Part shown: positions 322-18,526 of the stretch, in pieces | How positions within the stretch are numbered: position 1 is the stretch's first letter | Layout: every line of letters begins with the position of its first letter | Assembly (NCBI GenBank): GCA_015232645.1 | Contig: JADFZF010000009.1 | Location: forward strand, 1-38,020 | Origin: Magnetococcales bacterium | GTDB taxonomy: Bacteria > Pseudomonadota > Magnetococcia > Magnetococcales > UBA8363 | DNA length: 38,020 nt | Reading direction: 5' to 3' | Translations under genes and position numbers: made by a program | The notes under the pieces: generated by a model | Database searches by the model: none | Seen by the model: the letters and a program-made list of their open reading frames with translations, nothing else | What the model was told of the DNA's origin: nothing

Positions 322-783
322 AACAAAATCATCATTCAACGCGCCAAGGAACGGCATATTGGAATCCGTCCACGCATTATTTCGGACAACGGCCCCCAGT
401 TCATTGCAAAGGATTTCAAGGTCTTCATCCGGGAATCGGGAATGACTCATGTGCGAACGTCACCCTATTATCCCCAGAGTAACGGCAAGATCGAACGTTG
501 GCACAGAACCTTGAAGCAGGAGAGCATCCGGCCCAAGACCCCGTTGTCGCTGGATGACGCCCGGCGACTGGTATCCAATTATGTGACCCACTACAATGAA
601 GTTCGTCTCCACAGCGCCATCGGTTACGTCACCCCGATGGCCAAATTGGAAGGTCGGGAGGAACAGATTTTTAAAGAGCGGGACCGTAAACTCGAAGCGG
701 CAAGAGAGCGACGAAAGGCCAAACGAAGCCACCCTTTAATGGCCGCTTTTACGACCCCAGAAATAACCACTACCGCCCATTGA
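322..783 (+). pseudogene. IS3-family transposase OrfB, C-terminal fragment
   Basis: An open frame follows a stop codon at 319-321 and ends with TGA at 781-783. It encodes the second half of an rve/DDE integrase core: IIQRAKERHIGIRPRIISDN, then GPQFIAKDF, then SPYYPQSNGKIERWHRTLK and the tail LHSAIGYVTP. The second catalytic Asp (ISDNGPQF) and the final Glu (NGKIERWH) are both visible. The N-terminal DDE half, including the first Asp, is absent, and no proper start exists upstream in frame. The fragment is cut at its 5' side by the divergent OrfA element and at its 3' side abuts an IS1634-like remnant, so this is a decayed, nested IS region. A start at ATG 442 would miss part of the catalytic core. 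Confidence 0.85.
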
Positions 784-1767: not shown

Positions 1768-2133
1768 CTACCTTGTCGAAGATTCATCCATGCTCTTGAC
1801 GGGTTCCATCTCTGGATCAGCAGTCGCCTCAACAGGAATGGGGGTGGGATCATCGCCCAGTGAGCGGCGGATATGCGTCGCCGATGGCCTCAAGGAGGGA
1901 TCCAGTGGCAGTTCATGACTCAATTCTTCCTCGGAAGAGTCCCCCTTGCTCAACTTTTCCTTGATTAATTCGACCCCCTCCCTGGCCCGACCGACGGCAA
2001 ATCGATTAAGTTCCACCAAACCAGCGATCATGTCGCCAAGAATATTGAAGACACCCGTCCCCATGTTCTCAACGCGAATCTCGACGATCTCCTCGCCACT
2101 GCTGGCCGTTTGTACAGTTTCATTGACCATCAT
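1768..2133 (-). CDS. Small MamK-linked protein sharing a motif with the MamJ-like protein
   Basis: This encodes 121 residues downstream of mamK in the same direction (82-base gap). I chose ATG 2133 (MMVNETVQ) because a GAGG ribosome site lies 7 bases upstream; a longer frame from GTG 2223 would overlap the end of mamK and has no such site. The protein has a conserved-looking core, VENMGTGVFNILGDMIAGLV, followed by a basic/acidic helix (REGVELIKEKLSKGDSSEEE) and a Pro/Asp-rich tail. The core resembles VEGLGSGIANLLGDAVGGVV near the C-terminus of the MamJ-like protein at 3362-6214. It has no signal peptide; the core could be a membrane-associating amphipathic or hydrophobic helix. I do not recognise a named family. 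Position after mamK corresponds to mamL in Magnetospirillum, but the sequence does not resemble MamL. Confidence 0.7.
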   Translation of the reverse strand: MMVNETVQTASSGEEIVEIRVENMGTGVFNILGDMIAGLVELNRFAVGRAREGVELIKEKLSKGDSSEEELSHELPLDPSLRPSATHIRRSLGDDPTPIPVEATADPEMEPVKSMDESSTR

Positions 2134-2215
2134 GTCACTACCTCGCAAATAGTTGGCCCTCATCCCCCTGCCCTGGCAAGACACGGGCCCGCTTTGACGA
2201 ATGGGCGCGACGGTG

Positions 2216-3256
2216 TCATCCACCGATCACATCACCAACCTGGTTCCAGTATTCCAATGGCAGTTCAGTGGCCATCTTCAAGGCCCCCAAGGAACCCGCA
2301 TAAATCGGATCATCCACCAGATGGACGCGGACGTCGCCATAATCACGCAGGCTGTCCGCAAGAACGCGATCCAACCCCCGCATCCGAGATCCGCCACCGG
2401 CCAGAATGATATTTCCAACCACCTCTTCCTGGTTTTCAGGATCAAATATGGTGATCAACTGCTGGACGTTTTCGATGATGTCCGGAACAATAGCCTCGCA
2501 GGCCATGCGAACTTCGCGAGTGATTTCATGGGGCTGGGGTTTTCCATTAGCACGAAGATTGACGATGATATCCTGTTCAGGTTGGCCGACAAACCCGAAT
2601 TGATCCTTGATCTTTTGCGCCAACAAGGTGGTGATCTGAACATTAGGATAAGACTCGGAAATCAGGCTTGTCAAAAAATTGTCTACATGATTACCGGCCT
2701 TCATCAAGGTCACCTGTTCTTCCGCCCCGGGAATGGTCCCACGCATGGCGCAAATATCGATGGTCCCGGCTCCGATGTCAATGATGATGGCATTGGTCAA
2801 CTTGTTGAGGCCATAGGCCACCATGAAAGGCTCGGATACCACCATGGAAAAATGCATCAGCTCGTTGGTGATCCGCAACAGTTGATTTTTATTGGAAATG
2901 GAAGCGCGCGCCGGAACTCCGAGGATACCGCATACCCGGTCTCCTGGTTGAGGATGGGCCAGGGAAATGGCATATTGAATCAACTCTTTGGCCGCCTGGG
3001 TATCTTTTTCACTCGCTTCTTTCAAAACCCCGTCTTCCAGGGGAAAATGAATATTCAAATAGGACCGACGGTCCAGGGCCTCCTCGCCAACGACGTTGGT
3101 TTGGTCCAAAAGCTTGACCCCGATGATATCCTTGGGGTAACCCACGACCGAACGGACCGCTTCCTTGGTCCCCCGGTTGGATACCACGGTTGTCCTTGAT
3201 GTGCCCAGGTCAATGCCCAGAAAAAGGTTTCTGCCCTGTTGCGAGGATGATTCCAT
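2216..3256 (-). CDS. mamK: MamK, actin-like magnetosome filament protein
   Basis: This encodes 346 residues, the usual MamK length. MamK polymerises into ATP-driven cytoplasmic filaments that align and segregate magnetosome chains. The actin-fold ATP-binding motifs are in order: phosphate-1 LFLGIDLGTSRTTVVSNRG (residues 11-29), phosphate-2 IIIDIGAGTIDICA (157-170) and adenosine motif NIILAGGGSRMRGL (282-295). Family hallmarks include SVVGYPKDIIG (36-46), VVSEPFMVAYGL (139-150; Glu142 corresponds to the Glu linked to ATPase activity in Magnetospirillum MamK) and the C-terminal YWNQVGDV. Overall similarity to Magnetospirillum MamK, as I remember it, is high from end to end, well above that to MreB or ParM. 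The start ATG 3256 has AGGGG 6-7 bases upstream. It follows the MamJ-like gene by 105 bases, the same order as mamJ-mamK in Magnetospirillum. Confidence 0.95.
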   Translation of the reverse strand: MESSSQQGRNLFLGIDLGTSRTTVVSNRGTKEAVRSVVGYPKDIIGVKLLDQTNVVGEEALDRRSYLNIHFPLEDGVLKEASEKDTQAAKELIQYAISLAHPQPGDRVCGILGVPARASISNKNQLLRITNELMHFSMVVSEPFMVAYGLNKLTNAIIIDIGAGTIDICAMRGTIPGAEEQVTLMKAGNHVDNFLTSLISESYPNVQITTLLAQKIKDQFGFVGQPEQDIIVNLRANGKPQPHEITREVRMACEAIVPDIIENVQQLITIFDPENQEEVVGNIILAGGGSRMRGLDRVLADSLRDYGDVRVHLVDDPIYAGSLGALKMATELPLEYWNQVGDVIGG

Positions 3257-3361: not shown

Positions 3362-6214
3362 CTAACTTTTTGACTTGGTACCTGTTCTCCCGATCGTATA
3401 GCCGATCAACCCCCCCAGAGTCCCTAACGATCCCAGAAGAATATCGATACCACCAGTCGTGATCTGGGCAGCGCCGCCCAAAATGCCACGGATTCCTCCG
3501 CCCACGCGACGTAAACCCGACTCGGATGCAGGCGTCGGGCGGTGCTGGGAGACCATTTTTGCACGCGATTTGAGATCGGACTGCCGCGCATCAACCTGGA
3601 TGGTGGCCGTTCTGGAAACCGTAAACAGGGAAACGACTCCTCCCACGGCATCACCCAGAAGGTTGGCAATTCCCGAACCCAATCCCTCGACCGGAACCTG
3701 CCCCAGGTCCGGGCCACGACCTGAGGGGACGAAATCTTCACTCCTGGCCAACCGCCGCGATACCGGTTGAAGCTGACCGACTGCCACGGTCCCCGAAACT
3801 GAACCGTTGGCGGTACGGGAGGTGGATTTGACCACTTTGTCAAGGACAGGGGCTCTGGTCCCGCCCGCAAGGCGATTCTCCTTGGCAGGAATGGTCACCA
3901 CGAAATGGGTGTTTTTTGTTGCCGTGGGTCGAGTCCGGGTCGAAGTGACATGCGGCGTTTCAGCCGCATTGGCAACAGCAGCCTGGCCCTTAAGGACCCC
4001 GGCGTTGATGTTGACCCGTCCCAACGGCGATTGAGTTGAGTTACCCATCGGTTCTGCGACAGGTGTTGCTGGTGCAAGGCGAACTTTTCCCTGAGGGGAT
4101 GGCGTGGGAATGGAGGGATTGGCAGCGGGTGTGTTCGCCTTCCTTGGCGGCAGTGGCACGGAGGATGGAGGGGCCGAGACCTCCTGGGCCCTGGAGGCTG
4201 AAACGTTGCCCGCCATCGACGATCGGGGAGGACGATGGTCATCACCCCGTTGAGAATCGGCAGTGACAACCTTGCTCTGCCCATCCTTGGGGGGGGCGGC
4301 CGCTGGGGGGGGCACGGTACCGGTGCCACCGCTTGGAGAAGGTGCCGGCTTGAAGGCGATCCCTTTGTTCACAGGGGCCCTTCTTGCCGACAGCTCATCT
4401 TCAGCTGGCCCTGAAAGCGATCTTGAACCGGAAGTTTGACTATTTTTCTGAACCATCCGGGTCGCCTCCTGGGGACGCGCCGCGGTCGCCTGCGCCTGAC
4501 TTTTTTGTACGACTACAGAGCCAGCCGGCCTGGATGCCATGGCTTCCGATGGGGCCAAGTCCGGTGAAGATGTCCCTGGGGCATGCTTGACTGCCGCTTG
4601 AGGTTTGAGACTGGACACCTCCCGTTGGCCACCGGACTTGGGGCCCGGTGTCACAGCCGTCCTCGGAAGGGGGGGGGCGGGAGCGGTTTTCGTGGAAGAA
4701 GAATCGTTCGCAAACCGTGGCCTCGGACCAGAGGGAGGGGGGACCACCACCGCCTTGACCGGAATTGGATGGGCGTTCACGGAGGCCGAGGAACGTGATT
4801 TTGCTTCCAGATTGGCCGATGGCACCGAAGTGGGTTTGACCTCCCTGGCGATCACATGCTTCTTTGTCTCGGGGTCCTGACGATTCGTCTGGGCCGCCAA
4901 TGGCACACCGCTGGTCGGGTAGGAGCGAAGGCCCGCGACAGGCACCTTAGCCTCCGAATCGAGATGGAAAGGATTGGTCTTGGATTTGGCTGCCGCCGCA
5001 GCCCGAGCGGGCAATGACTGTGTCGCCGACCCGGATGGAGGTTTTGTTGAAACAGCCGGAAGGCTTCGCGTATTTGAGGAGTCGGCGGGCATTGTCTTAG
5101 CCTCCCTTGCGGCAATCGGGGTATTGGCCAGGGCGCCATGCTTCTCTATCGTTAAGCCGGGACCCGCAATTTGTTCGTGAACGAAGGGGACCCCTTTAAA
5201 ATGGCCTGCACGTCGATAACGTAAGTTCGGCCGAGGCTGACCAGAGTCGGTCTCCGCCTCGCGGGGATTGGGACCGACATGGGCGCCACGGACTTGACGA
5301 GGTCGTTGACCCTGGCTGGAGATCACCTTGAGCCAATTAGATTTGTTTTCCACCCCCGCCAGGGTCTCAAAATCCGTGACCGACAAAGAAAGTGGCTCCG
5401 GCGGCGGGACGAATGCCTGCTCCACCGGTTGATGGCGTAAGCTTCCGGCAGCCTCGGTTGCCTTAAGGGCGGATGATTTGCGCGTTATGGACGCCTGTGT
5501 CACCGCAACCGATTCGGCCCCTTCAAGCACGGCCCGACGCGCCGGGATCAGATCCTCTGTTTTTTTCGGGGATGGCACCGCCCCTTGAGCGGCTGGTTCG
5601 CGATTCGAAGGCTGCTCCTTTTGCTTCTGCGAATTGGAAACCGATGGAGCGACACGACCCTCTGCCGCAATGGTCTCCGGGCTGTGGCGCAGCCCTCCGC
5701 TTGACAATTTTTCCTTGAGAAAACGATTCAATGGTGAGACCTCCCACCCTTCCGACCGGACCGGTTTGGGTCGGAGGGGAGGGGCTGCGTCCGCCCCATG
5801 TCCCGAATGAATCGGAGCCGTAAGCGGAGATTCGGCTGCCACACCGGCATCCCCCATTGATTCCGACGGTGAAGAACTCTGAGGTGCCAATCCTTCCTTT
5901 CCCTCGGTGATCACTCTAAGCTCGGCGGGATCAGGGATCTTTTTTATGTTGCCTCGGTGGGCCAAATTGATCCCTCCAACCTGAAAACCATTAAAATCAT
6001 CGGGACCATTGACCGATGCGGCCACGGGGGACAATGAGGTTGCGGATTCGGGCCCGTCCATCGTCAAGGGTCCCACGCTGACCCCTTCCGGTGGGGTGGG
6101 GGGGCGGCGATCCTCAGACACCGGTTGCCCACGCGCCAGCAGGGCTGTGGCCTGTTTAAGCGCGGCCAACCCCTTCATGGCATTGCCCCTGGATCCGATC
6201 ATATCCTGTTCCAT
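3362..6214 (-). CDS. Large low-complexity MamJ-like protein
   Basis: This encodes 950 residues. Residues from about 30 to 835 are rich in Pro, Ala, Ser, Lys and Arg and look disordered, with scattered short recurrent motifs but no recognisable domain. The last 110 residues are different: VPVEGLGSGIANLLGDAVGG, then a linker, then a Gly-rich hydrophobic stretch ending GGLIGYTIGRTGTKSKS. MamJ, which tethers magnetosomes to MamK filaments, is likewise a variable low-complexity protein ending in a Gly-rich hydrophobic domain that begins with a similar VPVEDL-type motif (from memory), and it too is encoded directly before mamK. I infer a MamJ-like adaptor role, although this protein is about twice as long and basic/Pro-rich rather than acidic. 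The start ATG 6214 has only a weak ribosome site; ATG 6202 or 6178 are alternatives. The gene carries G/C runs of 8-9 bases (4289-4296, 4305-4312, 4669-4677). Confidence 0.7.
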   Translation of the reverse strand: MEQDMIGSRGNAMKGLAALKQATALLARGQPVSEDRRPPTPPEGVSVGPLTMDGPESATSLSPVAASVNGPDDFNGFQVGGINLAHRGNIKKIPDPAELRVITEGKEGLAPQSSSPSESMGDAGVAAESPLTAPIHSGHGADAAPPLRPKPVRSEGWEVSPLNRFLKEKLSSGGLRHSPETIAAEGRVAPSVSNSQKQKEQPSNREPAAQGAVPSPKKTEDLIPARRAVLEGAESVAVTQASITRKSSALKATEAAGSLRHQPVEQAFVPPPEPLSLSVTDFETLAGVENKSNWLKVISSQGQRPRQVRGAHVGPNPREAETDSGQPRPNLRYRRAGHFKGVPFVHEQIAGPGLTIEKHGALANTPIAAREAKTMPADSSNTRSLPAVSTKPPSGSATQSLPARAAAAAKSKTNPFHLDSEAKVPVAGLRSYPTSGVPLAAQTNRQDPETKKHVIAREVKPTSVPSANLEAKSRSSASVNAHPIPVKAVVVPPPSGPRPRFANDSSSTKTAPAPPLPRTAVTPGPKSGGQREVSSLKPQAAVKHAPGTSSPDLAPSEAMASRPAGSVVVQKSQAQATAARPQEATRMVQKNSQTSGSRSLSGPAEDELSARRAPVNKGIAFKPAPSPSGGTGTVPPPAAAPPKDGQSKVVTADSQRGDDHRPPRSSMAGNVSASRAQEVSAPPSSVPLPPRKANTPAANPSIPTPSPQGKVRLAPATPVAEPMGNSTQSPLGRVNINAGVLKGQAAVANAAETPHVTSTRTRPTATKNTHFVVTIPAKENRLAGGTRAPVLDKVVKSTSRTANGSVSGTVAVGQLQPVSRRLARSEDFVPSGRGPDLGQVPVEGLGSGIANLLGDAVGGVVSLFTVSRTATIQVDARQSDLKSRAKMVSQHRPTPASESGLRRVGGGIRGILGGAAQITTGGIDILLGSLGTLGGLIGYTIGRTGTKSKS

Positions 6215-6494: not shown

Positions 6495-6896
6495 TTATTT
6501 GTAAATGGCCGCCTTTCTGGAACCGGCATCTGAAAAAGTTTTCAGCCAACTGTTCCGGAATCGTCCCAAAGTTCGGGATAACCGCCGACTATCCGCCGGG
6601 GTGATCAGACCGGCAGCCATGGCCTTGAGAATACGCCCCCACAGACGGTCCAGATCGCCCGGGGTGGCGGGCGGGTAAGCCTCCAAATATTGCGTCAATT
6701 CGTCAATCAGCGACACCGAAGACATAGCAGGCTGCGTCATGAGGGGCGACTCGGCGGTAGGCAAGGATTCCTTTTCGGCCAACAATTGCTCCGAAAGCTG
6801 GCGTTGCCGTTGACGGACCAGAAACGAACGGGCGGTCTCCGAGCTGATGCTTTGGATCCGACGGCGAATGGAACACGGTGGGGGTAAACCGGACAT
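6495..6896 (-). CDS. Hypothetical protein, 133 residues, after the TPR-SPOR gene
   Basis: I do not recognise this protein. From ATG 6896 (MSGLPPPCSIRRRIQS), with AAGAGG just upstream, it is 133 residues; starts at 6935 or 7016 in the same frame would overlap the SPOR gene. The N-terminal half is basic and helical (SFLVRQRQRQLSEQLLAEKE). The C-terminal half has a plausible folded helical domain (SLIDELTQYLEAYPP, then DLDRLWGRILKAMAAGLITP). There is no signal peptide or membrane segment, so it is probably cytoplasmic. Its start lies 14 bases past the SPOR gene stop, and a terminator follows 66 bases after its own stop, so it is the last gene of that unit. The frame could be real on position alone; function is unknown. 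Confidence 0.6.
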   Translation of the reverse strand: MSGLPPPCSIRRRIQSISSETARSFLVRQRQRQLSEQLLAEKESLPTAESPLMTQPAMSSVSLIDELTQYLEAYPPATPGDLDRLWGRILKAMAAGLITPADSRRLSRTLGRFRNSWLKTFSDAGSRKAAIYK

Positions 6897-6909
6897 ACGC
6901 CTCTTCAAT

Positions 6910-8094
6910 TCAATTGTAGGCTCGAATATAGGCATCCGTAATACCACCCCGGGTGGCAAGATCTTTTTTGGCTTCTTCTGCCTCTTCCAACCGGGAATAC
7001 GGCCCGCTGAAAACACAAATCATGGAGCTGTTGCTACGTTGCTTGGTATAGACCCGCAGACCCAGTTTGCGAACAGCGGCCATTTGTTCATCACTGTTGG
7101 AGCTTTCCGAGAAACAGCCCACGGATATGAACCATCCCGTTCGCTCTGCGGGGGGAGAATTGGCTTGGGTCGCTGCAGTCGATTCGGTACCGGTTCCAGC
7201 TGTGGCGCCTACGGCGGCGACCGAACTCCCCTGAACCTGAGTGTTCTGCACCTGAATGTTCTGCACCTGGGCAGCCCTGACCTGATTTTCGTGACGCTCG
7301 ACTGAAAGAGCGCCGTCCACGCTGGAGGCAAAGGGTGAATTTGCTGCCGGAGCCGGCTTTTCAGTCGAGGAGACCGCGGTTGTCGGAACTGCGGAGTGTT
7401 CCGCCGATACCGAAGAATGTTTCTCCACGGTTTTGGCCGGTTCATTGCCGGGTGCTTCCGGTGGTTTGGAAGCGGTTGCCGGAGTGACTGCCGGAGGAGG
7501 CTGATTCTGATTGGCGATGACCAGTTCGTAGGTTGGATCCTTCGTCCCCTGAGGCGACTGCGTCTGTTTCTTCCGGACCGCAGCTTGATTGCCGACCGAA
7601 CGCTCCTTTTGTCGGGCATCGGCCAGGCTGTCTAACAGTTTGAGAGTGATGGGGTTATTGTTGCCGTTGACCCGTCGGGAAATCTCCACGGCATCACTGT
7701 AAAACTGTTTCCCGGAAGAAAAGCGGTTATTCCGTATGTCGATCCATGCCAGCCGTTCAAGGATGGGGAGGAGCGATTTATGGTTATTGCCATTGACCCG
7801 CACAGTGATGTTGAGGGCCTGCTGCAACAATGGCTCCGCCTTGGGAAAATCGCCATCGACGATGTACAGCTCTGCCAGCGCCAACCTCGATGCGACGGTT
7901 TCGATGGCATTGGGACCATAACGGTCGACGGAGAGCCGCACCGCATCCTGGGCACTGACCAACGGCGCTTTGGCTCCGTCCTGGGCCTGCGCCGGAATCC
8001 AGCCGCCGAGCAACGTTCCCCAAAGAAAAAAAATCAAGGTTTGGAGGAGCGTTGCCGAACGGATTACCCTTCGATTTCCTGGTGCTGGTGTCAT
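6910..8094 (-). CDS. Secreted TPR-SPOR domain protein
   Basis: This encodes 394 residues from ATG 8094; the in-frame TTG at 8100 is less likely. A signal peptide (TLIFFLWGTLLGGWIPAQAQ) is followed by tetratricopeptide-like helices at about residues 45-145 containing two VNGNN repeats. A Pro/Ala/Ser linker follows (about 150-315), including a short QVQN repeat. The last 75 residues form a SPOR domain: GWFISVGCFSESSN, then RVYTKQRSNSSMICVFSGPY and a helix ending the protein. SPOR domains bind septal, denuded peptidoglycan, so the protein should sit in the periplasm with the TPR part holding a partner. It is the first gene after the terminator at 8241-8266, and the 133-residue orphan follows it directly. 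It may link the cell wall to division or to magnetosome positioning, but that is inference. Confidence 0.85.
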   Translation of the reverse strand: MTPAPGNRRVIRSATLLQTLIFFLWGTLLGGWIPAQAQDGAKAPLVSAQDAVRLSVDRYGPNAIETVASRLALAELYIVDGDFPKAEPLLQQALNITVRVNGNNHKSLLPILERLAWIDIRNNRFSSGKQFYSDAVEISRRVNGNNNPITLKLLDSLADARQKERSVGNQAAVRKKQTQSPQGTKDPTYELVIANQNQPPPAVTPATASKPPEAPGNEPAKTVEKHSSVSAEHSAVPTTAVSSTEKPAPAANSPFASSVDGALSVERHENQVRAAQVQNIQVQNTQVQGSSVAAVGATAGTGTESTAATQANSPPAERTGWFISVGCFSESSNSDEQMAAVRKLGLRVYTKQRSNSSMICVFSGPYSRLEEAEEAKKDLATRGGITDAYIRAYN

Positions 8095-8240
8095 GGTCAA
8101 ACATCCGGGTGGTTGGCTGGGTCGGGTGGTTGTCTGGCCACTTTCGGTTACCAGCGCTGTCAGGCCCCCACAAACACCAGGTTGAGATCCTTATTTGAAG
8201 AGCTGCGTGCAACCTGGCTGGTCACCGAATTTCCCCCTGG

Positions 8241-8275: not shown

Positions 8276-9397
8276 TCAGGGGTGGGGTTCGGTTTTTCCG
8301 GTTGCGGATGACACCGTCCCTCCATCCCCATTATCCGTTGTTTCAAAGAAAAAACGCAAGTCCGGTTGTAGGTTTCCCTGTTCCTTCCTGGAAGAAGCGA
8401 CATGCCCTTCAATTTGGAACAAACTTTGGCCACGACCATTTTTCATGATCAATAGCTCTGGAGCCGCGGTCACCAAGGTCTGGAGAACATGAAAGGCACG
8501 AGAGGTTGCAAGTTTCCAATTGAAATAATACCGTGGCTCACCAGGATGAGCAAAGGCAGCCAGCCCCCGAATATGTATAGCGTCGATACGCACTCTCCCC
8601 GAATGCTCATTGCACGAAAAAGCACCTGCGGGCGGATGGGCGACATGACAAGGGAGGATCCGAGCCAATCCCTGAGCCAGAGCTGAAAGGGCACGGCGCT
8701 GCCTGGGGCCGGGCACAGGCGAGCCACGATCAAAATCAAGATTAGAAGGCAGAAGAAGGGTGGCCTGTTCCGAATTGACATGAATTTTCAATTGCGCTCG
8801 CGTCAAAAAGGCTCGAAGTCGGGAAAAAAACTCCTCTGGGGATTGGACACCCGCGGGATCGGTCGGAGGAAGCGGTGGTTGTAGCGCTTGCGTGGCCAGA
8901 GGCGGAGGGGAGGGCAGCGGAGCTGGGCCACCAACCAACGTTTCCAATTTTTCAATGTGATCCTGAAGTCCCAGAAGGACATTGCGGTTCAGTGTCTGCT
9001 CCTCCGCCTCCCGGGCTCGGGTGGTGGCCATGGTTTCGGTGGCCTGAAGCATCTGCTGGCCCAGGCGGTTCAAGGCATCGACGAATTCCCGCGATGACGA
9101 CTGGGTTGCGATATTATCCATCCTGACGTTCATCCGCTCCAGAAGGGCCAGAAGTCGGTCTTCCCGATCACTGTGGGGGTCCCGCGGCTGGACCCGGGTA
9201 TTGAAAGGGGTTTCGGCAATGGCGATGGAGGAATGCCGAAGGGGAGGCGATATTTCGGCGATCAACCACAAGCGTCTTTGCGTCAAACCAGCCCCGAGCA
9301 GGAGCGTCATCACCAACAAGACGGTGGCGACCAACTCCAGCATCAAGGCAGATCCCGGGTTGAAATGCCTGCAGGAACTGTTGGTGACTCGCTTCAT
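8276..9397 (-). CDS. MotB/ZorB-like stator subunit with OmpA-like C-terminus
   Basis: This encodes 373 residues from ATG 9397 (MKRVTNSSCRHF); TTG 9430 is an alternative. One membrane segment near the N-terminus (ALMLELVATVLLVMTLLL, residues 17-34) is followed by a coiled-coil/Pro-rich linker. The C-terminal region from about residue 265 has the OmpA/MotB pattern: RIDAIHIRGLAAF, then NWKLATSRAFHVLQTLV and FQIEGHVASSRKE. This layout is that of MotB, TolR and ZorB proteins: a TM helix pairing with the channel subunit plus a peptidoglycan-binding periplasmic domain. The proton-carrying Asp expected in the TM helix appears to be Glu21. It follows the giant ZorA-like gene (137-base gap), as B follows A in motAB and zorAB. 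Assignment to the superfamily is fairly firm; the exact subfamily is not. Confidence 0.75.
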   Translation of the reverse strand: MKRVTNSSCRHFNPGSALMLELVATVLLVMTLLLGAGLTQRRLWLIAEISPPLRHSSIAIAETPFNTRVQPRDPHSDREDRLLALLERMNVRMDNIATQSSSREFVDALNRLGQQMLQATETMATTRAREAEEQTLNRNVLLGLQDHIEKLETLVGGPAPLPSPPPLATQALQPPLPPTDPAGVQSPEEFFSRLRAFLTRAQLKIHVNSEQATLLLPSNLDFDRGSPVPGPRQRRALSALAQGLARILPCHVAHPPAGAFSCNEHSGRVRIDAIHIRGLAAFAHPGEPRYYFNWKLATSRAFHVLQTLVTAAPELLIMKNGRGQSLFQIEGHVASSRKEQGNLQPDLRFFFETTDNGDGGTVSSATGKTEPHP

Positions 9398-9534
9398 GGC
9401 GCTCTTCGTGCGAGATTGCGGCGGGAACAAACCACGTTGATAACCTTCCCATCGACCTGCCGATACGATGGGGCTCGGATGGCTGGTCCCTCCCCGGGGC
9501 CATCGGCATGATTGCCTACGATGGCATTGAACAG

Positions 9535-12500
9535 TTACGTTTGGCCTGTCGTTTTCCCTTTACCACGCGCGTAATATTGGTGCAACAGAGAATCCAGTCG
9601 TTCAGGATACACTTGCCCCGGTTGGGAACCTTCCCGGACATGCCGCGATAACAACGGCGTGGCGGCAGCCAACACTTCGGCAGGAAACGGTGATTGCCTG
9701 GGAACGATGGGTTTGATGCCGCGCCGTTGCAGCGGTGCCGGAGTCGTCGCCGGTGAGGAATCGCTCCGAAAAGTTTCGTCGACCCCCTCCTGAATCAACC
9801 CGGCCAGCTCCAGGATATCTTCATCCAGATTGATCAACGGACTGTTGGCCATGGTCGGATCGGAAACCCAGAATTCCATGGTGGCAACAAGATTGGTCAA
9901 ATGGTTGGCGAATTGCGGATCGGACAGTCGCCTTCCCGAAGCCAAGAGATCGGACATGCGATTGAGAATCGGGGTGATGGCTTCATCACTCCCCTGTGTT
10001 CTTTCGTGAATGTTACGGGCCATCCTGTTGACCACGCCATTCATGGCGGCTTCACGCCGGCCCGCAAAATCCTGATGCTTCTGCCGATGGGGCACCCATG
10101 GCAAGCGCTGCTCACCCAGGGGAATAGCCGTCTCTGTGACAACGTGGATAAGACTGTCCGCGGAAGATTGTGGTTCGGCCCCAGGTTCGGTACCAACATC
10201 AGCCGCAAGCTTGACTGGCCCCTTCCAAACGGTTGGCGCCCCGTCGGGTTCCGAAACCGCAATCTCTTCCGGGCCCTGCGCAAAGGGCGACTTCCTCTTT
10301 CTGACCGGACCAACAAGTTCCGCCCAGGAGGCCGATGCCGTTCCTGCACTGGTTTGACCAGCGGTGGACCAAGGGATGGCTTCAACGGGCCCGGGTGAGG
10401 ACCCGGAGGCTCCCGTCCCTTTCGGCGGCTTGCCTTGAAGGGCCGAAATCACCTGCCAGGGAGTGACCGGCGCCGCCGCGGCATCAACCCCGGCGGCTGT
10501 CACGACCGGGGGCAGAGAACCAATCGGGAGCGGCTCTTCGGCAGGCTGCGGTGGCGACTCTTCCCCGCTGGAAAACTCGTCTGCGGGCTCGACCGGAGAC
10601 CGCCCCTCCTCATCGCCTGATAGGGGTTGACCACTCGTTTCGACCCGTCCCTGCTCCATGGCCTTTGGAACCTGGGTACCGTCTGCTTCCTTGGTTTCAG
10701 CAACGACGATCATCGGGACTATGGGACTGATTTCTCGATCTTCCCCAGAACGCGGCCTGGGTGGCCCAAGAGAACTCTTTCGCGACGAGAGCTGATCCCA
10801 CATGTTCTTCGACAATGGATGGATGCCCCCTTGTCCATCCAGACGCAATCCCGCTTCACGTTTGGCCGCCCTCTGAGAATAAACAAGATCTTCCAGTGTT
10901 TTTGTTTCCTCCCGTATGGTGATGAGCCATCTGCGTGACAGCTCTTCCTGGTCGGTGGCCTGCAACAGTTCCCGCTGCATCTGCGCCAATACTTCCTGCA
11001 GGCGGTCAAACAACTGCTCGCTCTCATCCTGGATGGCGATGACCAGATCGGTCTGTTTACGGGTCAACAGACCGTTCTGGTCCTTGAGCACCGCCAAGGC
11101 CTGCTGCAACTCATCGCGACGGACCAGCGCCTCCATGGCAGTCCGGACGATGCGGCGCATATCTTCCCGACGGGCTTCCGTCTCCTCGACTCGTTGCCGC
11201 CGGATCAATGTTTCCAACTCATTGATGCGATGTTTTTGCTGTTCGGCATGGTGATGAATCGCCTCCAGGGCAGGGTCCAGGGTAAAGACCGACTCCCGAC
11301 GTTCGATGCTGTCATGGATATTACCCCTGATCGCCTCAAGGTGATCCTTGTGCAGAGTGCGCGTCTCCTCCAACAACGCCTCGCGGATGCGATTCACCTG
11401 TTGCACGGTCAGATCCACTTGGCGAGCGAAGCCCTCTGCCTGCTCATGGAGAGACTGGCCGATGGATTGAGTCGCTGCCGCCAAGCCATCTCCCCCACGT
11501 TGCACAATGTGGGTTGCCTGTGATTCCACCACCGTCCGCAAGGACCGGCCCGCCTCCCGGATCTCGGTTCCGAGCCTCTCCACCACTTGCTCCGATTGCA
11601 TCCCAACCGCCTGCAGTACGGGCTGAACCGCGTCATGGAAGGAACTGTCAACATGCTGCATCCATTGTTCCGTCTGGCGGGCGATCATCTCGGTCAGCGG
11701 CTGACTGACATCCACCACCGTCTGCTCAAGCTGCCCCAACAACTCCCCGGCCCGCCCCTCCACCGCCTGAAGTATAGGTTGCACCGCCTTGAGAAAGGAT
11801 TCATCCGCATGTTGCATCAGACGATCCGTCTGCCGAACCAAAGCCTGCATCACCGGCTGAGTGGCATGATCCACATGCCGTGTCACCTGTTCCGTTTGCG
11901 CCTCCATGGCTTGCAACAACGACTGACTCGCCTTGGGAATCGCCTGGTGAACCGACTGCTCAAGCTGTCCCAACACTTCTCCTGCCCGCCCCTCCACCGC
12001 CTGAAGTATGGGTTGCACCGCCTTGAGGAAGGATTCATCCGCATGTTGCATCAGACGATCCGTCTGCCGAACCAAAGCCGGCATCACCGGCTGAGTGGCA
12101 TGATCCACATGGCGTGTCACCTGTTCCGTTTGCGCCTCCATGGCTTGCAGCAACGATTGGCTCGCCTTGGGAATCGCCAGGTGAATCTGCTCCACCACCT
12201 GTTTTCCTTGATTCTCCACCGCTTGTAAAACCGGTGGCACGGCACGATCGATGGATTGATCCAGATGGCGCTGCAGCTGCTCGGTATGGGCCACGACGGC
12301 CTGCGTGAGCGACTGAAGGACATGGCCGCTGGCGGCATCCACCTGGTGTTGCAAACGCTCGCTCCGGAGTTCGACCACTTGTACCACCGGTTGCGCGGCA
12401 TCATGAATGGAACGGCCCAGTTGTTCCACGATGCGTTCCGCCTGGGTTTGAACCGCCTGCAACAGGGGTTGCGCCACATCCTGGAGCGATTGATCCACAT

Positions 12501-15500
12501 GCCGCATCTCGCGCTCCCTCTCCGCGACCACCGCCTCGGTGACGATCCGGATGGCCTGATTGATGGAGCCTTCCAAACCTTGCGTCAAACGTTCCGATTG
12601 GGACGCCAACGCCTGCAATACCGGTTGCGCGACGCTGTGAATGGCTGGCCCAAGGTACTCCACGGTGCGCCCCACCTGGGCTTCCACCGCCTGCACCATG
12701 GGGGCGGTCACACCTTGAATGGATTCGTTAACGTGATTCCGCAGGCGCACTTCCTGGGATTCGATCGCCGTGACCACCGGCTGCGCCGCGTCATGAACCG
12801 TTTGTCGAAGTTGTTCGACCATTCGTTCCGAATGCGCCGCCATCGACTGCAATACCGGTTGATTGGCGCTTTGCGTGATCCGTTGCAACTGTTCGACAAT
12901 CCGCCCCGACTCGGTTTCCACCGCCTGCAGCACCGGTTGCGCGGCGGTCTGCAACGAGCGATACAAGTGCTCCACAACGCGTCCCGCCTGGGTTTCCACC
13001 GCCTGCAGCACCGGCTGCGAAAGACCTTGCACCGAGCGATACACATGTTCCACGATGCGTCCCGACTGGGTCTCCAGGGCGGTCATGACCGGCTGATGGC
13101 CGGTGCGACTGAGGTTCTCCACCTGTTCCAAGACCCGAACCATCTGCGATTCCAATGCCTGTCGCACCGGTTCATGGCCATTCTGCATCGCCTGGCCAAC
13201 CTGCTGGGCCAAGTGCTCCGACTCTCGCGCCACCACCTGTTGCATCGAGGTGGCCACCCCTTGCACGGCATGATCCACCCGGATGGTGGCATCAATGATC
13301 CGTGTCTCCACCGACTCCAACAACTGCAGGTTATGATCCTGAAGGAGATGATCAAATTTTTCCTCAAGATATCGGGAGTGAATTTCCACCGATTGCAGAA
13401 TCGGCATGGTCAGTTCGCGTGCCGAACGATTCCAGGACTCCTCGATCTGTTGAGTTTGGGTCTCTTGAGCCTGCAACAGGGCCTGCGTGATGCCATCAAA
13501 GCGTTGTTGATCCTGCCGTTGCACCTCGGTATGACGCTCCAAGGTTTCGCGTATCCCCTCCAGTTCCACGCTCCGATCGTTCCCTGCCCAAGTTTCCCGC
13601 ATCGCCGTGCCCAGGGCTTCCAGATGCCTGTCGGCGATGCTACGCACCTCTTCAACCGCCGCCTGCCGTAAACCGTCCAGGTAGGTCATAACCCGGGCGT
13701 GCTCGCTTTCCATGGCTTCCTTCATGGCGACCATCATCGCCGCCTCGTTGCCAGGATCGTGGCGATCCTGCCCCCAGAGACCCAACAATTGTTCATAACC
13801 GGTCAGGATCGTGTCACTTTGCTGGCGGATGATCTCCAGCATGTTCTCCATCTGCCGGGACAGGGAAGCCGTGGAATCTTCCAAGGCCACTTTCCACTCC
13901 GACGATGGGTTGGTGGCCAATACGGGTGGCGGTGGGGTGGAATGCCCGGCGGCCATCTCCAGCAGATACTGCCGGGCTGTACCCAATTGCTCGGTCTCCT
14001 GCCGCAAAAGCTCCATCATCGTTGCCATACGGTGATGGAGATCGCCGCTCATCTGATCGAGAGTGGCCTGCAACAATTCCGTGGAAAGCCCCGTTTCCGA
14101 ATGACCGGGAGTGGCATCCAATAATTGCACCAGCGTGGCGTGTTGCGCCGTGACGGCACGAGCCACCTCCTCCTGCAACCATCGATTCATGGCGTCCAAC
14201 TGCTCCATCAACTCCTGGTTTCCTTCCCCCAGAAGCGTCTGCAGGCCTGCCAAGGCCGGCATGGCCTCCCGGGTCAAACGGGCCACCTCCTCCACACGGA
14301 GCGAAAGATCGTTCACTCCCCGATCAATCCCCTGTTGAATCCCCTCCAAGGACGCCTGGGTTTGCGCCTGGGTTTCTCGAAGCTGCCGATTGACCTCCTC
14401 CATTCCCTGGGTAAGACGCTCGCTTCCATCACGCATCGCCCCCAGCAGTGGTTCCAACCTGTTGGTAGCCACCTGGTGACGCAGCTCCGCCAGGGCGGCC
14501 GTCACCCCCTGCTCTCCTTGGCCCAGGACCTGGTTCAAATCGTCGAAACGTTGGACCATCCCCTCCTGGCCGTTCTGGACCGCCTGCACCACCGCCGGCA
14601 ACAAACGTTGTTCCAACCGTTGCCCGAATGCCTCCACCACCGCTTCCAAAGAATGGCGTTGGCTTTCTCCACCGCGCTGGACCTCCAGACGCAACACCTC
14701 CTGAATACGATCCACTTCCTCCTGAATGATGGCGGCGTGCTGCCGCAGCGTCTGCAGCACGGGTTCCAGGTCCGGGTTCGCATTCGATGCGCCGGCAAGT
14801 TCCTGCAACCACTCCTGCAGGGCCAGACGACGATCGCCCGCCGCGCGGGTCAATTCATCCCGGATGACCATCATGGCCTCGTTCATGGATTGAGCTAGGC
14901 GGGCGGTTTCGGCTTGCCATTCCCGACGCAGGTCAGCAAAATCCTCGGCCATCCGATCCGCCTCAGGAATTCGCGTCTCCATGGCGGCCAGCCCGGAACG
15001 CCAATCTTCTTCCAGGGCCCCCAGCCGCCCCTTGAGTTCCTCATGCATCCCCTCCACCAACCGGCCAACATCGCTGTTACCCTGATGGAACGACTGCAGC
15101 ACCGAAGTCAGGCTGGCCTCGAAAGAGGCCAGGAGGGCCTGCGAATCATGAGACTGCGACGATGGAGTCGTCAGTACCTCCTGAATCTCTTCCAGAGTAT
15201 CCTTCAATCCCTGGGTATTCCGATCCTGCTCTCTCCGAATGGAGGCCGCCACCCCCTGGACATCCAGGGCCGCAGATAAATCCCGGCTCAGACCATCCAG
15301 CCCCTGATGCAAAATTTCCTGTAGCCATTGGGAGGTGGGACGTTGTTCCAAGGTCTGACGGATCTGTTGTCCCTGCTCGCGAATGGCTTCGAGAATGGAA
15401 TCGGGGGCGGGTGAGGTCTGGATATGTTGCTGAACGCTCTCCTGGATCCGCAGCAATTTGTCTCCCAATGCCGCCAAAATGCTTTCCAACCGGGAAGTTT

Positions 15501-17433
15501 CCAGCGCCGGCCCCCCTCCCTCGTCTGCAGCGGACACCGGCATAGGCAATGAAATACGCCACTTGAAGACTTCATCCATCACGGTCTGAATCTGGTGTTC
15601 CAGGGCCGCTACCCCGGCATCGGGACGAACGACAGCCTCTTCCAGACGTCGGATCGCCTCGTTCATCCCCTGCAGAACCTGGACATGGGGGGTGGCCTGC
15701 CGTTGTCCATCCCTCAAAACCTCTTCAAGGGCGGCTACCTCCTGACGTAACGCGGTCAGAGAGGTTCCCAGGTCCTGGACAGCAGCGGACGACTGCATCT
15801 TGACGGTGTCGCCGATGCGTCTGATCTCTTCATGGACCGAGCGGATAATGGGTTCGACGATGGTTGTTTCGTTGATCAGCCGTTGCAACTCTTCCAACAG
15901 CTGCGGACCCATGGACGACTCCGAATGGGGCGGCGAGACCTGGTGCGCGGCCAGGGGGGCCATGGTCTCCTGCCAGGTCTGGAGCAATCGTTGCGCTTCA
16001 GCGTGAATGAGCTGGGACAGATGCTCGACGAACATAGGTTGGGCCAAACTCTGTTTGAGATGGACGGCCAACTCCTTCAGTTCCGCCTGGGTGGCCTGGA
16101 CGCGATCATGATCCCCCTTGACCGCCGACAATACCGGCGCCAGCGCCTGAGAAAGGTCCCATTCCAGGGTGGCCTGTTCCACTTCTCGATGTATATGTTC
16201 CAAAACTGGCGCAAAAAATCCCGGGTTACGCAGTTGCGCCAGGGTATCCTGCATCATTTTCTTGAGGATACGCTCCGCCTCGGCCCCGTGCTGTCGCGAC
16301 AACGACTGCAACGATTCCACCACTATGGCCGACAGATCGGGACTACCGATCCGTTCCGCCAGTTCGGTGCCCTGACGGCTGATGGCCTGAAGAATTTCAT
16401 CCACAAAGGGTTGCAGGCCCACTGCGGGCTTTTCCCTGAGGCTGCCCGCCAGATGTTCCATCTGTTGTACCGAACGTTTGATGGCTTGGGTTTCGGAACC
16501 GGCCAGGTCGCGGACTTCGGCCAGGTCGCGCCGCATATCGTCGCGTAACTCTGCCAACAGGGATTCCTGGGTCTGCTGCTGACGGGCGTGTTCCCGCCTG
16601 GCCTCGTCATACCACTGCCTGGTGGTGTGACGAATCATCCCCCCCAGGCGCTCTTCCAATTCCACGGACAGTTGCGCCGTCATGGCAGCGGCCAAATCAG
16701 GAAACTGCTCGCGCAGTGTCTGGTCGGAACCGGTCTCGATGTTGGATCTGGCGAGATGTTCCAAAACCATGGTTTCGCGCGGCACCTCCTCCACCCACCG
16801 ACCGATCGTCCGGCCCAGCTCGATGGTATGCTGTTCCAACAGATGAAAATGTTTACGGATGACGGCCGCAAGCAACACCGAACTGATGATGCCGGCAATG
16901 GAAGTCAAAAATTTGAACGACGCCACTTGAAACAGGGTCTGAAGGGCCGACAGGGAGGGATTGTTTCCCTCTGGAAGAATGGTCGAGGCGGAAATGTGAA
17001 CCGCGATCAGGAGGCTGGCAAAGGTAAAGACCAACCCGGCATTGGCGAGATAGGAGGGTATGGCCTGGAATGATTTCAGTTCCGATAAAGGATACCCCAG
17101 ACTTTCGAGGGTAAAATGCTTTTCCGCAGTGGTGGAAGATCGCAACGTCTGTTTTTTTTCGGAAAAGAACAAGGTGGCGCGGTAACTGCGCCACGCCAGA
17201 GCCACGGTCGGATTGTGGCTGAGCAGGGCGTCGAGATTTTCCAGATGGCGTGCCAGGGCGACCGGGGAGGTGTAGGCCGCCACGGCCGCGGTGGCGTCCG
17301 TCACCCCTTGACGGCCTCGGGCCGCCAGAATCCGGAACCGAATCAGGGCCAACAACCCCCAAAAGACGATGAGTGCCGAGACGCCCCATGGCACCCCCGG
17401 GTGGTTGATCAGGTTGGCGGTCCATTCAAACAT
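9535..17433 (-). CDS. Giant MotA/TolQ/ZorA-like channel protein with repetitive coiled-coil tail
   Basis: This encodes 2632 residues; GGGGG lies 6 bases before ATG 17433. Three membrane segments sit in the first 195 residues: about 16-32 (ALIVFWGLLAL), 128-150 (LANAGLVFTFASLLIAVHIS) and 171-192 (SFKFLTSIAGIISSVLLAAV). The F-x-TS-x-x-G-x-x-x-S pattern of the third matches the MotA/TolQ/ExbB/ZorA proton-channel fold. From about 200 to 2150 the protein is almost continuous coiled coil. It includes a long block of 26-residue repeats (consensus near QPVLQAVETQAGRVVEQL) and an exact-phase 234-base tandem duplication at 11722-12189. A Pro/Glu-rich linker and a C-terminal helical domain (about 2490-2580) follow. 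ZorA proteins have cytoplasmic tails too, but those I know of total only about 700 residues. The ZorB-like partner follows; a receiver-ATPase and a large membrane protein precede it. Confidence 0.8.
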   Translation of the reverse strand: MFEWTANLINHPGVPWGVSALIVFWGLLALIRFRILAARGRQGVTDATAAVAAYTSPVALARHLENLDALLSHNPTVALAWRSYRATLFFSEKKQTLRSSTTAEKHFTLESLGYPLSELKSFQAIPSYLANAGLVFTFASLLIAVHISASTILPEGNNPSLSALQTLFQVASFKFLTSIAGIISSVLLAAVIRKHFHLLEQHTIELGRTIGRWVEEVPRETMVLEHLARSNIETGSDQTLREQFPDLAAAMTAQLSVELEERLGGMIRHTTRQWYDEARREHARQQQTQESLLAELRDDMRRDLAEVRDLAGSETQAIKRSVQQMEHLAGSLREKPAVGLQPFVDEILQAISRQGTELAERIGSPDLSAIVVESLQSLSRQHGAEAERILKKMMQDTLAQLRNPGFFAPVLEHIHREVEQATLEWDLSQALAPVLSAVKGDHDRVQATQAELKELAVHLKQSLAQPMFVEHLSQLIHAEAQRLLQTWQETMAPLAAHQVSPPHSESSMGPQLLEELQRLINETTIVEPIIRSVHEEIRRIGDTVKMQSSAAVQDLGTSLTALRQEVAALEEVLRDGQRQATPHVQVLQGMNEAIRRLEEAVVRPDAGVAALEHQIQTVMDEVFKWRISLPMPVSAADEGGGPALETSRLESILAALGDKLLRIQESVQQHIQTSPAPDSILEAIREQGQQIRQTLEQRPTSQWLQEILHQGLDGLSRDLSAALDVQGVAASIRREQDRNTQGLKDTLEEIQEVLTTPSSQSHDSQALLASFEASLTSVLQSFHQGNSDVGRLVEGMHEELKGRLGALEEDWRSGLAAMETRIPEADRMAEDFADLRREWQAETARLAQSMNEAMMVIRDELTRAAGDRRLALQEWLQELAGASNANPDLEPVLQTLRQHAAIIQEEVDRIQEVLRLEVQRGGESQRHSLEAVVEAFGQRLEQRLLPAVVQAVQNGQEGMVQRFDDLNQVLGQGEQGVTAALAELRHQVATNRLEPLLGAMRDGSERLTQGMEEVNRQLRETQAQTQASLEGIQQGIDRGVNDLSLRVEEVARLTREAMPALAGLQTLLGEGNQELMEQLDAMNRWLQEEVARAVTAQHATLVQLLDATPGHSETGLSTELLQATLDQMSGDLHHRMATMMELLRQETEQLGTARQYLLEMAAGHSTPPPPVLATNPSSEWKVALEDSTASLSRQMENMLEIIRQQSDTILTGYEQLLGLWGQDRHDPGNEAAMMVAMKEAMESEHARVMTYLDGLRQAAVEEVRSIADRHLEALGTAMRETWAGNDRSVELEGIRETLERHTEVQRQDQQRFDGITQALLQAQETQTQQIEESWNRSARELTMPILQSVEIHSRYLEEKFDHLLQDHNLQLLESVETRIIDATIRVDHAVQGVATSMQQVVARESEHLAQQVGQAMQNGHEPVRQALESQMVRVLEQVENLSRTGHQPVMTALETQSGRIVEHVYRSVQGLSQPVLQAVETQAGRVVEHLYRSLQTAAQPVLQAVETESGRIVEQLQRITQSANQPVLQSMAAHSERMVEQLRQTVHDAAQPVVTAIESQEVRLRNHVNESIQGVTAPMVQAVEAQVGRTVEYLGPAIHSVAQPVLQALASQSERLTQGLEGSINQAIRIVTEAVVAEREREMRHVDQSLQDVAQPLLQAVQTQAERIVEQLGRSIHDAAQPVVQVVELRSERLQHQVDAASGHVLQSLTQAVVAHTEQLQRHLDQSIDRAVPPVLQAVENQGKQVVEQIHLAIPKASQSLLQAMEAQTEQVTRHVDHATQPVMPALVRQTDRLMQHADESFLKAVQPILQAVEGRAGEVLGQLEQSVHQAIPKASQSLLQAMEAQTEQVTRHVDHATQPVMQALVRQTDRLMQHADESFLKAVQPILQAVEGRAGELLGQLEQTVVDVSQPLTEMIARQTEQWMQHVDSSFHDAVQPVLQAVGMQSEQVVERLGTEIREAGRSLRTVVESQATHIVQRGGDGLAAATQSIGQSLHEQAEGFARQVDLTVQQVNRIREALLEETRTLHKDHLEAIRGNIHDSIERRESVFTLDPALEAIHHHAEQQKHRINELETLIRRQRVEETEARREDMRRIVRTAMEALVRRDELQQALAVLKDQNGLLTRKQTDLVIAIQDESEQLFDRLQEVLAQMQRELLQATDQEELSRRWLITIREETKTLEDLVYSQRAAKREAGLRLDGQGGIHPLSKNMWDQLSSRKSSLGPPRPRSGEDREISPIVPMIVVAETKEADGTQVPKAMEQGRVETSGQPLSGDEEGRSPVEPADEFSSGEESPPQPAEEPLPIGSLPPVVTAAGVDAAAAPVTPWQVISALQGKPPKGTGASGSSPGPVEAIPWSTAGQTSAGTASASWAELVGPVRKRKSPFAQGPEEIAVSEPDGAPTVWKGPVKLAADVGTEPGAEPQSSADSLIHVVTETAIPLGEQRLPWVPHRQKHQDFAGRREAAMNGVVNRMARNIHERTQGSDEAITPILNRMSDLLASGRRLSDPQFANHLTNLVATMEFWVSDPTMANSPLINLDEDILELAGLIQEGVDETFRSDSSPATTPAPLQRRGIKPIVPRQSPFPAEVLAAATPLLSRHVREGSQPGQVYPERLDSLLHQYYARGKGKTTGQT
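11722..12189. repeat. 234-bp tandem duplication inside the giant coiled-coil gene
   Basis: Two head-to-tail copies, 11722-11955 and 11956-12189, match closely through at least 12178 with few substitutions, for example at 11734/11968. The period of 234 bases equals 78 residues, which is exactly three of the 26-residue units, so the frame and heptad-like phase are kept. The high identity compared with neighbouring degenerate units shows recent expansion or homogenisation. The repeat unit contains ATQPVMQALVRQTDRLMQHA and AVQPILQAVEGRAGE. Confidence 0.9.
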
Positions 17434-17617: not shown

Positions 17618-18526
17618 TCAATGCACAGCCTTGCCGATGGCTGCTGTCGCCACCACCGTATTGCCGGATCCGACGAACTCAACCTTGGAAAAGGCGATCC
17701 CTGCCGCCAAGGCAATGCCACGCCCATGGGTATCGAACATGCGGGCCGGATCAAACATCAAGTAGGGCTGCCAGTCGAATCCAGGCCCCTCATCCCGAAT
17801 GGTATACTGAATGCTCTGGCCAACACGCTCAAAGTCAACGTGTACCCTCTTGTGGGCATTCTCGGACAAAGACATGCGGCGATGGATCTCCTTTTCCCAA
17901 TCCACCGGGTCGGCAAGCCGGGATTTATCCTCATAGGTGATCCCCAGGTTGCCGTGTTCCACCGCGTTGAACAACAGCTCCCTCAGTCCGACCACCACAC
18001 TTTCACGTTCGCTGCAGGGACAGGAAAGCAACACGGAAAGATAATCGGCCTCTTCCAGGGATTGAAAGCTGAAATAACCTTTATCGAGGAGTCTCAGAGA
18101 ATTGGCTGCCGCCCGGGTCCGTTCCAGAAGGACACGATGGTCATAATAATGGTGAATGGCCGCCTGGGCGATGGCCAAAAGGGTCTCCCGATGAATCGGG
18201 CGGGTCAGATAATAGTAGGCCCCCAGTTCCAGACCTTGCGCCACGTCATAACTGGCGTCCTTGGAGGTGACGAATACCACGGGTATGTGGCGGGTATGGA
18301 CGTTTTTCTTGAGTTCCGTACACACTTCCAGACCCGTCATTCCCGGCATGACTATATCCAGGAGGATCAGATCGAAGGGGTGCTTGCGGGCCAACTCCAA
18401 CGCCTCCGGCCCATTGGTGGCAAAGGACAATTCATGCTCGTCGCCAAAAATCGACGAGAGAGTTTTGATGTTGGCAGCGATATCATCGACAATCAAAATC
18501 TGCCAAGGCATTTGCTGCTTGAGCAT
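17618..18526 (-). CDS. Response regulator fused to an RsbW-type ATPase domain
   Basis: This encodes 302 residues. Residues 8-125 form a receiver domain with the acidic pair Asp14/Asp15, phosphoacceptor Asp57 (LILLDIVMPGM) and Thr87. The usual invariant Lys of the TKP motif is Arg109 (YYYLTRPI). Residues about 165-300 form a GHKL ATPase domain: N-box LRELLFNAVEHGN, G1-box DEGPGF and G2-type MFDTHGRGIALA. There is no His-containing dimerisation domain, so this resembles the anti-sigma/serine kinase type (RsbW, SpoIIAB) joined to a receiver rather than a histidine kinase. It probably acts as a cytoplasmic phosphorylation-controlled switch whose partner is not encoded obviously nearby. It lies 49 bases after the 1183-residue membrane protein and 184 bases before the giant ZorA-like gene, suggesting it controls that machine. 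Confidence 0.85.
   Translation of the reverse strand: MLKQQMPWQILIVDDIAANIKTLSSIFGDEHELSFATNGPEALELARKHPFDLILLDIVMPGMTGLEVCTELKKNVHTRHIPVVFVTSKDASYDVAQGLELGAYYYLTRPIHRETLLAIAQAAIHHYYDHRVLLERTRAAANSLRLLDKGYFSFQSLEEADYLSVLLSCPCSERESVVVGLRELLFNAVEHGNLGITYEDKSRLADPVDWEKEIHRRMSLSENAHKRVHVDFERVGQSIQYTIRDEGPGFDWQPYLMFDPARMFDTHGRGIALAAGIAFSKVEFVGSGNTVVATAAIGKAVH

Follow-up and report, generated by a model that had tools for sequence, protein, structure and literature searches.

The closest described counterpart of the protein studied here is MamJ of the magnetospirilla MSR-1 and AMB-1, an acidic protein (isoelectric point, pI, about 4.1) of about 430-470 amino acids (aa) that is encoded directly upstream of mamK and has a low-complexity, hypervariable middle. 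Our study concerns a gene with the same neighbour in a Magnetococcales bacterium (assembly GCA_015232645.1). The stretch analysed, positions 1 to 38,020 of the forward strand of contig JADFZF010000009.1 (38,020 nucleotides, hereafter the window), encodes at 3362-6214 on the minus strand a protein of 950 aa, which we call J, 106 bp upstream of a mamK gene on the same strand. Comparison of sequences and gene neighbourhoods suggests that J is probably a MamJ-type adaptor serving a second set of MamK filaments.

MamJ fastens magnetosomes to the actin-like MamK filament. The C-terminal part of MSR-1 MamJ (residues 334-426) targets the magnetosome membrane, binds MmsF and MmxF, and holds a glycine-rich putative membrane helix at residues 359-379; chain rescue is lost when truncations reach into this helix or take away the residues immediately in front of it (PMC11628618). 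According to the same work, MamD and Mms5 have GxxxG helices and MamF-dependence in common with MamJ. The central acidic repeat (CAR) domain is described as hypervariable and dispensable in MSR-1 (PMC10653835, PMC3905215). Additional MamJ-type copies occur in AMB-1, where LimJ and MamJ together influence the turnover of MamK and the mamJ-like gene of the islet (MIS) has no effect on chain maintenance (PMC9512821, PMC10653835). In Magnetovibrio blakemorei MV-1, a diverged MamJ substitute of 289 aa encoded directly upstream of mamK-II, Mg-1g50, was shown to help MamK in assembling chains (PMC10653835). In Ca. Magnetaquicoccaceae UR-1, the gene maq1, between mamE and mamK, was described as lacking homologues and as possibly analogous to MamJ; MamJ itself was not found in cocci, and the link between MamK and magnetosomes there was called unclear (PMC6783814, 2019). 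A more recent paper states that MamJ is missing outside the magnetospirilla (PMC10653835, 2023), and we found no report of MamJ-like proteins in cocci among open-licence papers.

The J protein and its likeness to MamJ

The minus strand is open throughout positions 3362-6214, which bears out the extent and the 950 residues given in a first-pass annotation made from the sequence alone; a plus-strand reading of the same interval was ruled out by its 23 stops. The start is backed by comparison with a congener (MEQDMIGSRGNAMKGLAALK in the window, MEQETTGSRANAMRGLTALK in locus L035). The same annotation had described the product as basic, rich in Lys, Pro, Ala and Ser, and glycine-rich at its C-terminus. 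J is indeed basic (pI 10.4, net charge +41), its C-terminus is rich in Gly, and Pro (11.3%), Ala (12.6%) and Ser (11.1%) are abundant; the enrichment in Lys was mistaken (5.2%, with Arg at 6.8%). Searches of Pfam, NCBIfam and PADLOC returned no match for the protein.

A basic, low-complexity linker lies between conserved ends. This linker is probably disordered; by composition only, 65% of the residues are disorder-promoting and 22% order-promoting. Near the N-terminus, a conserved box, NAMKGLAALKQATALLARGQ (6125-6184, minus strand; residues 11-30), follows the pattern [KRQE]Gh-x-A-h-[KR], kept in 14 Magnetococcales J proteins. A second short box, EVSPLNRFLKEKL (5705-5743, minus strand; residues 158-170), was recognised by eye and is unscored; its counterparts are WEHSPLNRFLKEKL in L033, LWSPLENFIKDKA in L037 and VLSPLERYVRDKV in L039. 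The family-defining C-terminal motif, QVPVEGLGSGIANLLGDAVGGVVSLF (3623-3700, minus strand; residues 839-864), is a putative glycine-rich membrane helix delimited by hidden Markov model, hhalign and hydropathy. Alignment and hydropathy mark a second Gly-rich hydrophobic segment, GGGIRGILGGAAQITTGGIDILLGSLGTLGGLIG (3401-3502, minus strand; residues 905-938), which is kept in most J proteins that reach beyond the motif. Among 21-residue segments of J, those at 846-866 and 918-938 are the most hydrophobic. Similarity between congeners is low, about 40% in the C-terminus and little in the middle.

Besides its place directly upstream of mamK and its low-complexity middle, J resembles MamJ in the C-terminal VPVExL followed by a glycine-rich membrane helix, which is among the few conserved regions of MamJ, and in a further Gly-rich KGG/TGG segment after the helix. 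Residues 359-379 of MSR-1 MamJ, counted from the C-terminus, are LLGGIFGVAGSAVRGVFTIGG and coincide with the helix of the J motif. Their 21-residue hydropathy is 1.41, against 1.32 for residues 846-866 of J and at most 0.57 in its first 820 residues; membrane domains of this kind have values of 1.3-1.6 (PMC11628618). When the C-termini of Magnetococcales and Magnetospirillum proteins were compared with hhalign, using sets chosen by position only, 34 columns aligned with a probability of 94.2% (E 1.2e-7, score 52), including the helix entry VPVE(D/G)L, and 150 column shuffles scored at most 20.7. Sets cut out with a regular expression for the motif are biased and were not relied on.

A profile of the motif built from Magnetococcales sequences only (37 positions, 14 sequences; whole-genome searches used a 20-sequence version) leads to the same proteins. 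At mamK loci outside the Magnetococcales it matched, at E<1, 12 of the 114 ORFs (open reading frames) directly upstream of mamK and 4 of the 5586 others (Fisher 4e-18). Among these matches are mamJ genes from several Magnetospirillaceae, the best of them at L185 (E 1.5e-5); weak ones lie directly upstream of mamK in Nitrospinota, Nitrospirota, Gamma- and Zetaproteobacteria. The whole AMB-1 genome gave four matches at E<=0.1, and three of them correspond to MamJ, LimJ and the MamJ-like gene of the islet, names that we derived from the neighbouring genes and the islet gene list of PMC9512821; LimJ, for example, was assigned to the gene after a mamE-like gene and before mamO/mamQ-like genes. Like J and its small relative described below, LimJ and the islet protein, with VPVEDLFTGIFNVA and VPVESFYAGVFNL, are extra MamJ-type copies in one genome; they are shorter than J, however, and adjoin mamE-like genes. 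Also in the AMB-1 islet, a 776-aa protein encoded just upstream of a mamK-like gene (L247, 2173-4503) ends in RSDVPVQGLTTGIADLVG and matches the motif weakly (E 0.22); it is possibly another J-type protein beside a MamK-like protein.

J differs from MamJ in several respects. Its 950 aa and pI of 10.4 contrast with the shorter, acidic MamJ, and it has the conserved N-terminal box described above instead of a recognisable MamJ N-terminal domain. Its charge (pI 10.4, net +41) goes with the absence of a CAR domain, and its gene lies outside mamAB, beside genes for SPOR, ZorB-like and ZorA-like proteins, with a small copy downstream of mamK2. Since the place in mamAB, the N-terminal domain and the acidic repeats are all absent, we do not file J as MamJ proper. 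By its shared C-terminal anchor, it is best classified as a member of a candidate Magnetococcales family of MamJ-type adaptors.

A second mamK locus

The gene at 2216-3256 (minus strand) encodes a 346-aa actin-like MamK paralogue, MamK2, which matches NCBIfam NF040964 with 511.4 bits (cut-off 400), and on this match its identity as mamK is certain. The genome, which is 74% complete, has a magnetosome island with its own mamK on contig C383, so that the mamK of the window marks a second locus. The island MamK, encoded at the end of that contig and followed by mamF-like, mamM and mamO genes, is 64% identical to MamK2. The mamK operon with conserved gene order proposed in the first-pass annotation consequently stands only in part: a mamK does adjoin J downstream, but in a second locus and not in the mamAB operon, and the order is kept for the J-mamK pair alone, with mamH/mamE and mamM/mamO at the separate island. 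In the congeners, the island mamK is directly preceded by mamE with no gene between; in the window's own genome this junction lies off the contig. MamK2 forms a clade (support 100/99) with the MamKs encoded at the second loci of four congeners and another family, f9. MamK-like actins with 35-44% identity were also found in Planctomycetota, Poseidoniales archaea, Acidobacteriota and others (L090-L151), and such proteins are thus not confined to magnetotactic bacteria.

The order of transcription at the second locus is ZorA-like gene, ZorB-like gene, TPR/SPOR protein gene, small protein gene, J, mamK2 and mini-J. The last of these (1768-2223, minus strand) encodes a small acidic motif-bearing protein of 151 aa as called (motif E 1.5e-9 in the locus ORF search, 1.2e-16 in the whole-genome search). 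Its true start is probably the ATG at 2133 or 2130, which gives about 121 aa. The profile match places its copy of the motif, IRVENMGTGVFNILGDMIAGLVELNRF, at 1999-2079 (minus strand). Homologues at the corresponding position occur in L033-L037 and L039 and are limited to the second-locus clade; those at L033:7671-8030, L037:4746-5078 and L039:10895-11227 lie downstream of mamK2, each with its own copy of the motif. The pI of mini-J is 4.6 in the window and ranges from 4.1 to 4.6 overall.

J genes across the Magnetococcales

The proteins encoded upstream of mamK in this order share little beyond a C-terminal motif of about 30 residues, VPVExLGxGIxNxLGDxVGGVV; an N-terminal box, h[KR]GhxAh[KR], is also present in J proteins of many families. 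The 37-position profile matches a mamK-adjoining ORF in nearly every Magnetococcales locus scanned. In whole-genome searches, we identified the motif in 44 of 48 Magnetococcales genomes and in none of 13 outgroup genomes of the same phylum. The four Magnetococcales without it comprise two at 75-78% completeness and two that also lack MamK (G035, G042). The 73 matches are made up of 51 within 900 bp upstream of mamK, a position with a chance of about 2e-4 per match, 7 just downstream (mini-J) and 15 elsewhere. An adjacent pair of motif gene and mamK is present in 42 of the 46 Magnetococcales genomes that have mamK.

Comparison of mamK neighbours, the check proposed with the first-pass annotation, thus shows J upstream of mamK repeatedly, and in many families between mamE and mamK. 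The islands of these families read mamH-mamE-J-mamK-mamM-mamO, which is the Magnetospirillum order except that J stands where mamJ would be. The window J gene does not have this place between mamE and mamK; island J genes of other families do. For example, the UR-1 gene between mamE and mamK, maq1, carries the motif (L250:7191-9362, E 1.9e-17, 723 aa); it differs from window J in lying in a magnetosome island, and its nearest relatives have an N-terminal box of another type. In family f9, J copies are present at both the island mamK and the second mamK. A single-contig Magnetococcales genome of 4,719,581 bases, which we take to be that of Magnetococcus marinus MC-1, has in its island a J gene (1254 aa) after mamE and about 8 kb of unrelated ORFs before mamK (L225, 2830-11339). 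This stretch would hide the adjacency of J and mamK in the type strain.

We also looked for a mamJ elsewhere in the genome, in the form of motif-bearing proteins. The window's own genome and four congeners (95-99% complete) each have exactly two matches, J and mini-J, both flanking mamK2. The length and basic charge of J, which the first-pass annotation had considered unusual, are so only in comparison with Magnetospirillum; within the Magnetococcales, where J proteins range from 282 to 1709 aa and from pI 4.2 to 10.5, they are, like the high Pro content, ordinary and carry no weight by themselves. Acidity was likewise discarded as a mark of the family, the charge flipping across its members.

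Proposed function and alternative explanations

It is important to consider the observations that weigh against a MamJ-type adaptor. A motif gene is missing upstream of mamK in about 40% of the loci scanned (32 of 81), and the window J gene itself lies outside the magnetosome island. The N-termini of J proteins do not match the MamK-binding region of MamJ (residues 23-81; hhalign probability 0.03%), the single-sequence E-values outside the Magnetococcales are mostly weak (0.002-1), and the whole-genome profile search of MSR-1 gave no match at E 0.1. The AlphaFold model of the J C-terminus (19 sequences) has low confidence, with a mean pLDDT (predicted local distance difference test) of 53; it has two long helices, which is consistent with the motif helix and decides nothing.

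The most serious alternative, which we consider possible although rather less than probable, keeps the descent of J from MamJ and changes its target: J would fasten the filament of MamK2 to the envelope (the cytoplasmic membrane, the ZorAB-like complex or the SPOR protein), and not single magnetosomes to the filament, and would so position the chain or cluster, in a manner closer to that of MamY than to that of MamJ. The arrangement ZorA-ZorB-(TPR/SPOR)-J-mamK2(-mini-J) is common to the two families of the supported MamK2 clade, and f9 has, besides its J genes at the two mamK genes, a third cluster of ZorB, SPOR, J and mini-J without mamK. In addition, 41 of the 105 ZorA-like genes identified are located 30 kb or less from mamK, with about 3 expected (P 1e-36, a value that ignores shared ancestry). 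On the other hand, the anchor of window J is the same motif as in the island J proteins and in the magnetosome-targeting helix of MamJ, and the window's genus has no further motif-bearing protein that could serve the magnetosomes.

The likeness to MamJ might also be convergent, any moderately hydrophobic, glycine-rich helix recognised by MamF-like proteins looking alike, and the job of J unrelated. The common stretch is only about 35 columns long and rich in G, V and L, the N-termini are unmatched, and MamD and Mms5 have comparable GxxxG helices and MamF-dependence (PMC11628618). We nonetheless regard convergence as unlikely: the VPVE(D/G)L entry is shared besides the composition, column shuffles of the same composition score far below the real alignment, and the matches are genes directly upstream of mamK and not glycine-rich proteins in general. 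That the frame is spurious or non-functional, held open by high GC content, is very improbable. Its low complexity and the limited similarity between congeners would fit such a frame, but the start, the N-terminal box, the C-terminus and the neighbours are kept in four congeners and another family, and this conservation already refutes it.

We therefore return to the MamJ-type adaptor of the second MamK filament system. The interpretation given in the first-pass annotation is partly supported: its core, that a rapidly evolving and probably disordered linker occupies the position of MamJ, is borne out by the shared C-terminal segment and by synteny; the adaptor function is one that we infer, J being expected by all indirect signs to behave like MamJ. 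The glycine-rich helix at 839-864 would insert in a membrane, probably aided by the segment at 905-938. Most likely this would be the magnetosome membrane, with a MamF-like protein assisting, and the island of the same genome has a mamF-like gene after mamK. The cluster also holds envelope proteins (SPOR, ZorB/MotB-like and ZorA/ExbB-like), so that another membrane may be the target. The conserved N-terminal boxes of J would hold the MamK2 filament, and the middle of about 650 residues would act as a flexible spacer whose sequence, length and charge are little constrained. With the same anchor, mini-J may compete with, cap or tune the large J; a role as regulator or competitor seems probable, as a guess.

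A MamJ-type part of the compass of magnetic cocci may thus have been overlooked, not absent. If so, the adaptor escaped notice because conservation is limited to about 35 residues, and the length, charge and sequence of the remainder drift freely. The question of how MamK is linked to magnetosomes in cocci would then gain a named gene in each genome, and the motif could serve to search other magnetotactic lineages. One congener, DCbin4, has a MamK that works in MSR-1, according to an excerpt of PMC10653835 that is silent on which of the two copies was used; this activity would offer a ready test bed for the adaptor.

Neighbouring genes and ZorA/ZorB-like proteins

Upstream of J, a small conserved protein of 173 aa as called, with an uncertain start, is encoded at 6495-7016 (minus strand) and has same-position homologues in L033, L035 and L037. 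It is preceded at 6910-8100 (minus strand) by the gene of a 396-aa protein with TPR and peptidoglycan-binding SPOR domains (Pfam TPR_12 1.3e-10, SPOR 2.8e-7); L033, L035, L037 and L039 have it at the corresponding position. On the other side of the locus, a fragment of an IS481/IS3-type transposase (442-783, plus strand) adjoins the mini-J gene and has a GC content of 50%, against 57%.

The next two genes resemble ZorAB (Zorya) and MotAB. At 8276-9430 (minus strand) lies the gene of a 384-aa ZorB/MotB-like protein with an OmpA-like C-terminal region (PADLOC ZorB1 9e-20; the L037 homologue matches OmpA at 1.8e-4, below the cut-off), and the AlphaFold model of this protein alone (pLDDT 37) was not usable. 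At 9535-17433 (minus strand), a ZorA/MotA/ExbB-like protein of 2632 aa with a giant tail is encoded (NCBIfam ZorA_1 1.9e-22; PADLOC ZorA1 4.2e-22). The adjacency of the two genes is as in ZorAB systems; the differences are that the ZorA-like protein scores 79 bits, below the curated NCBIfam ZorA cut-off of 190, and that such genes are linked to mamK throughout the Magnetococcales. No defence genes were seen in the window, and ZorC, ZorD and ZorE were not searched for in the whole genome.

ZorA-like genes are present in 47 of 48 Magnetococcales genomes and in none of the 13 outgroup genomes. Pairs of ZorA-like and ZorB-like genes are clustered with mamK in the window (8276-17433) and in L038-L042, L071, L226-L228, L232 and L255-L265, and in family f7 a ZorA-like gene directly follows a mamK outside the island. 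This distribution suggests a functional link of a MotAB/ZorAB-type complex with MamK filaments. Our search of open-licence papers found nothing on Zorya with magnetotactic bacteria, or on TolQ with magnetosomes in Magnetococcales. A bolder and improbable idea is that the MamK2 filament, the MamJ-type adaptors and the giant-tailed ZorAB/MotAB-like motor could form one ion-driven machine that positions or orients magnetosomes with respect to the envelope.

Further upstream of the ZorA-like gene, the window encodes a response regulator with a HATPase domain (17618-18526) and an unannotated protein of 1250 aa (18576-22328). The latter recurs in the f1 and f9 clusters, including those of the f9 genomes in which a similar protein, ZorB, SPOR, J and mini-J are clustered without any mamK (L218, L219 and L220).

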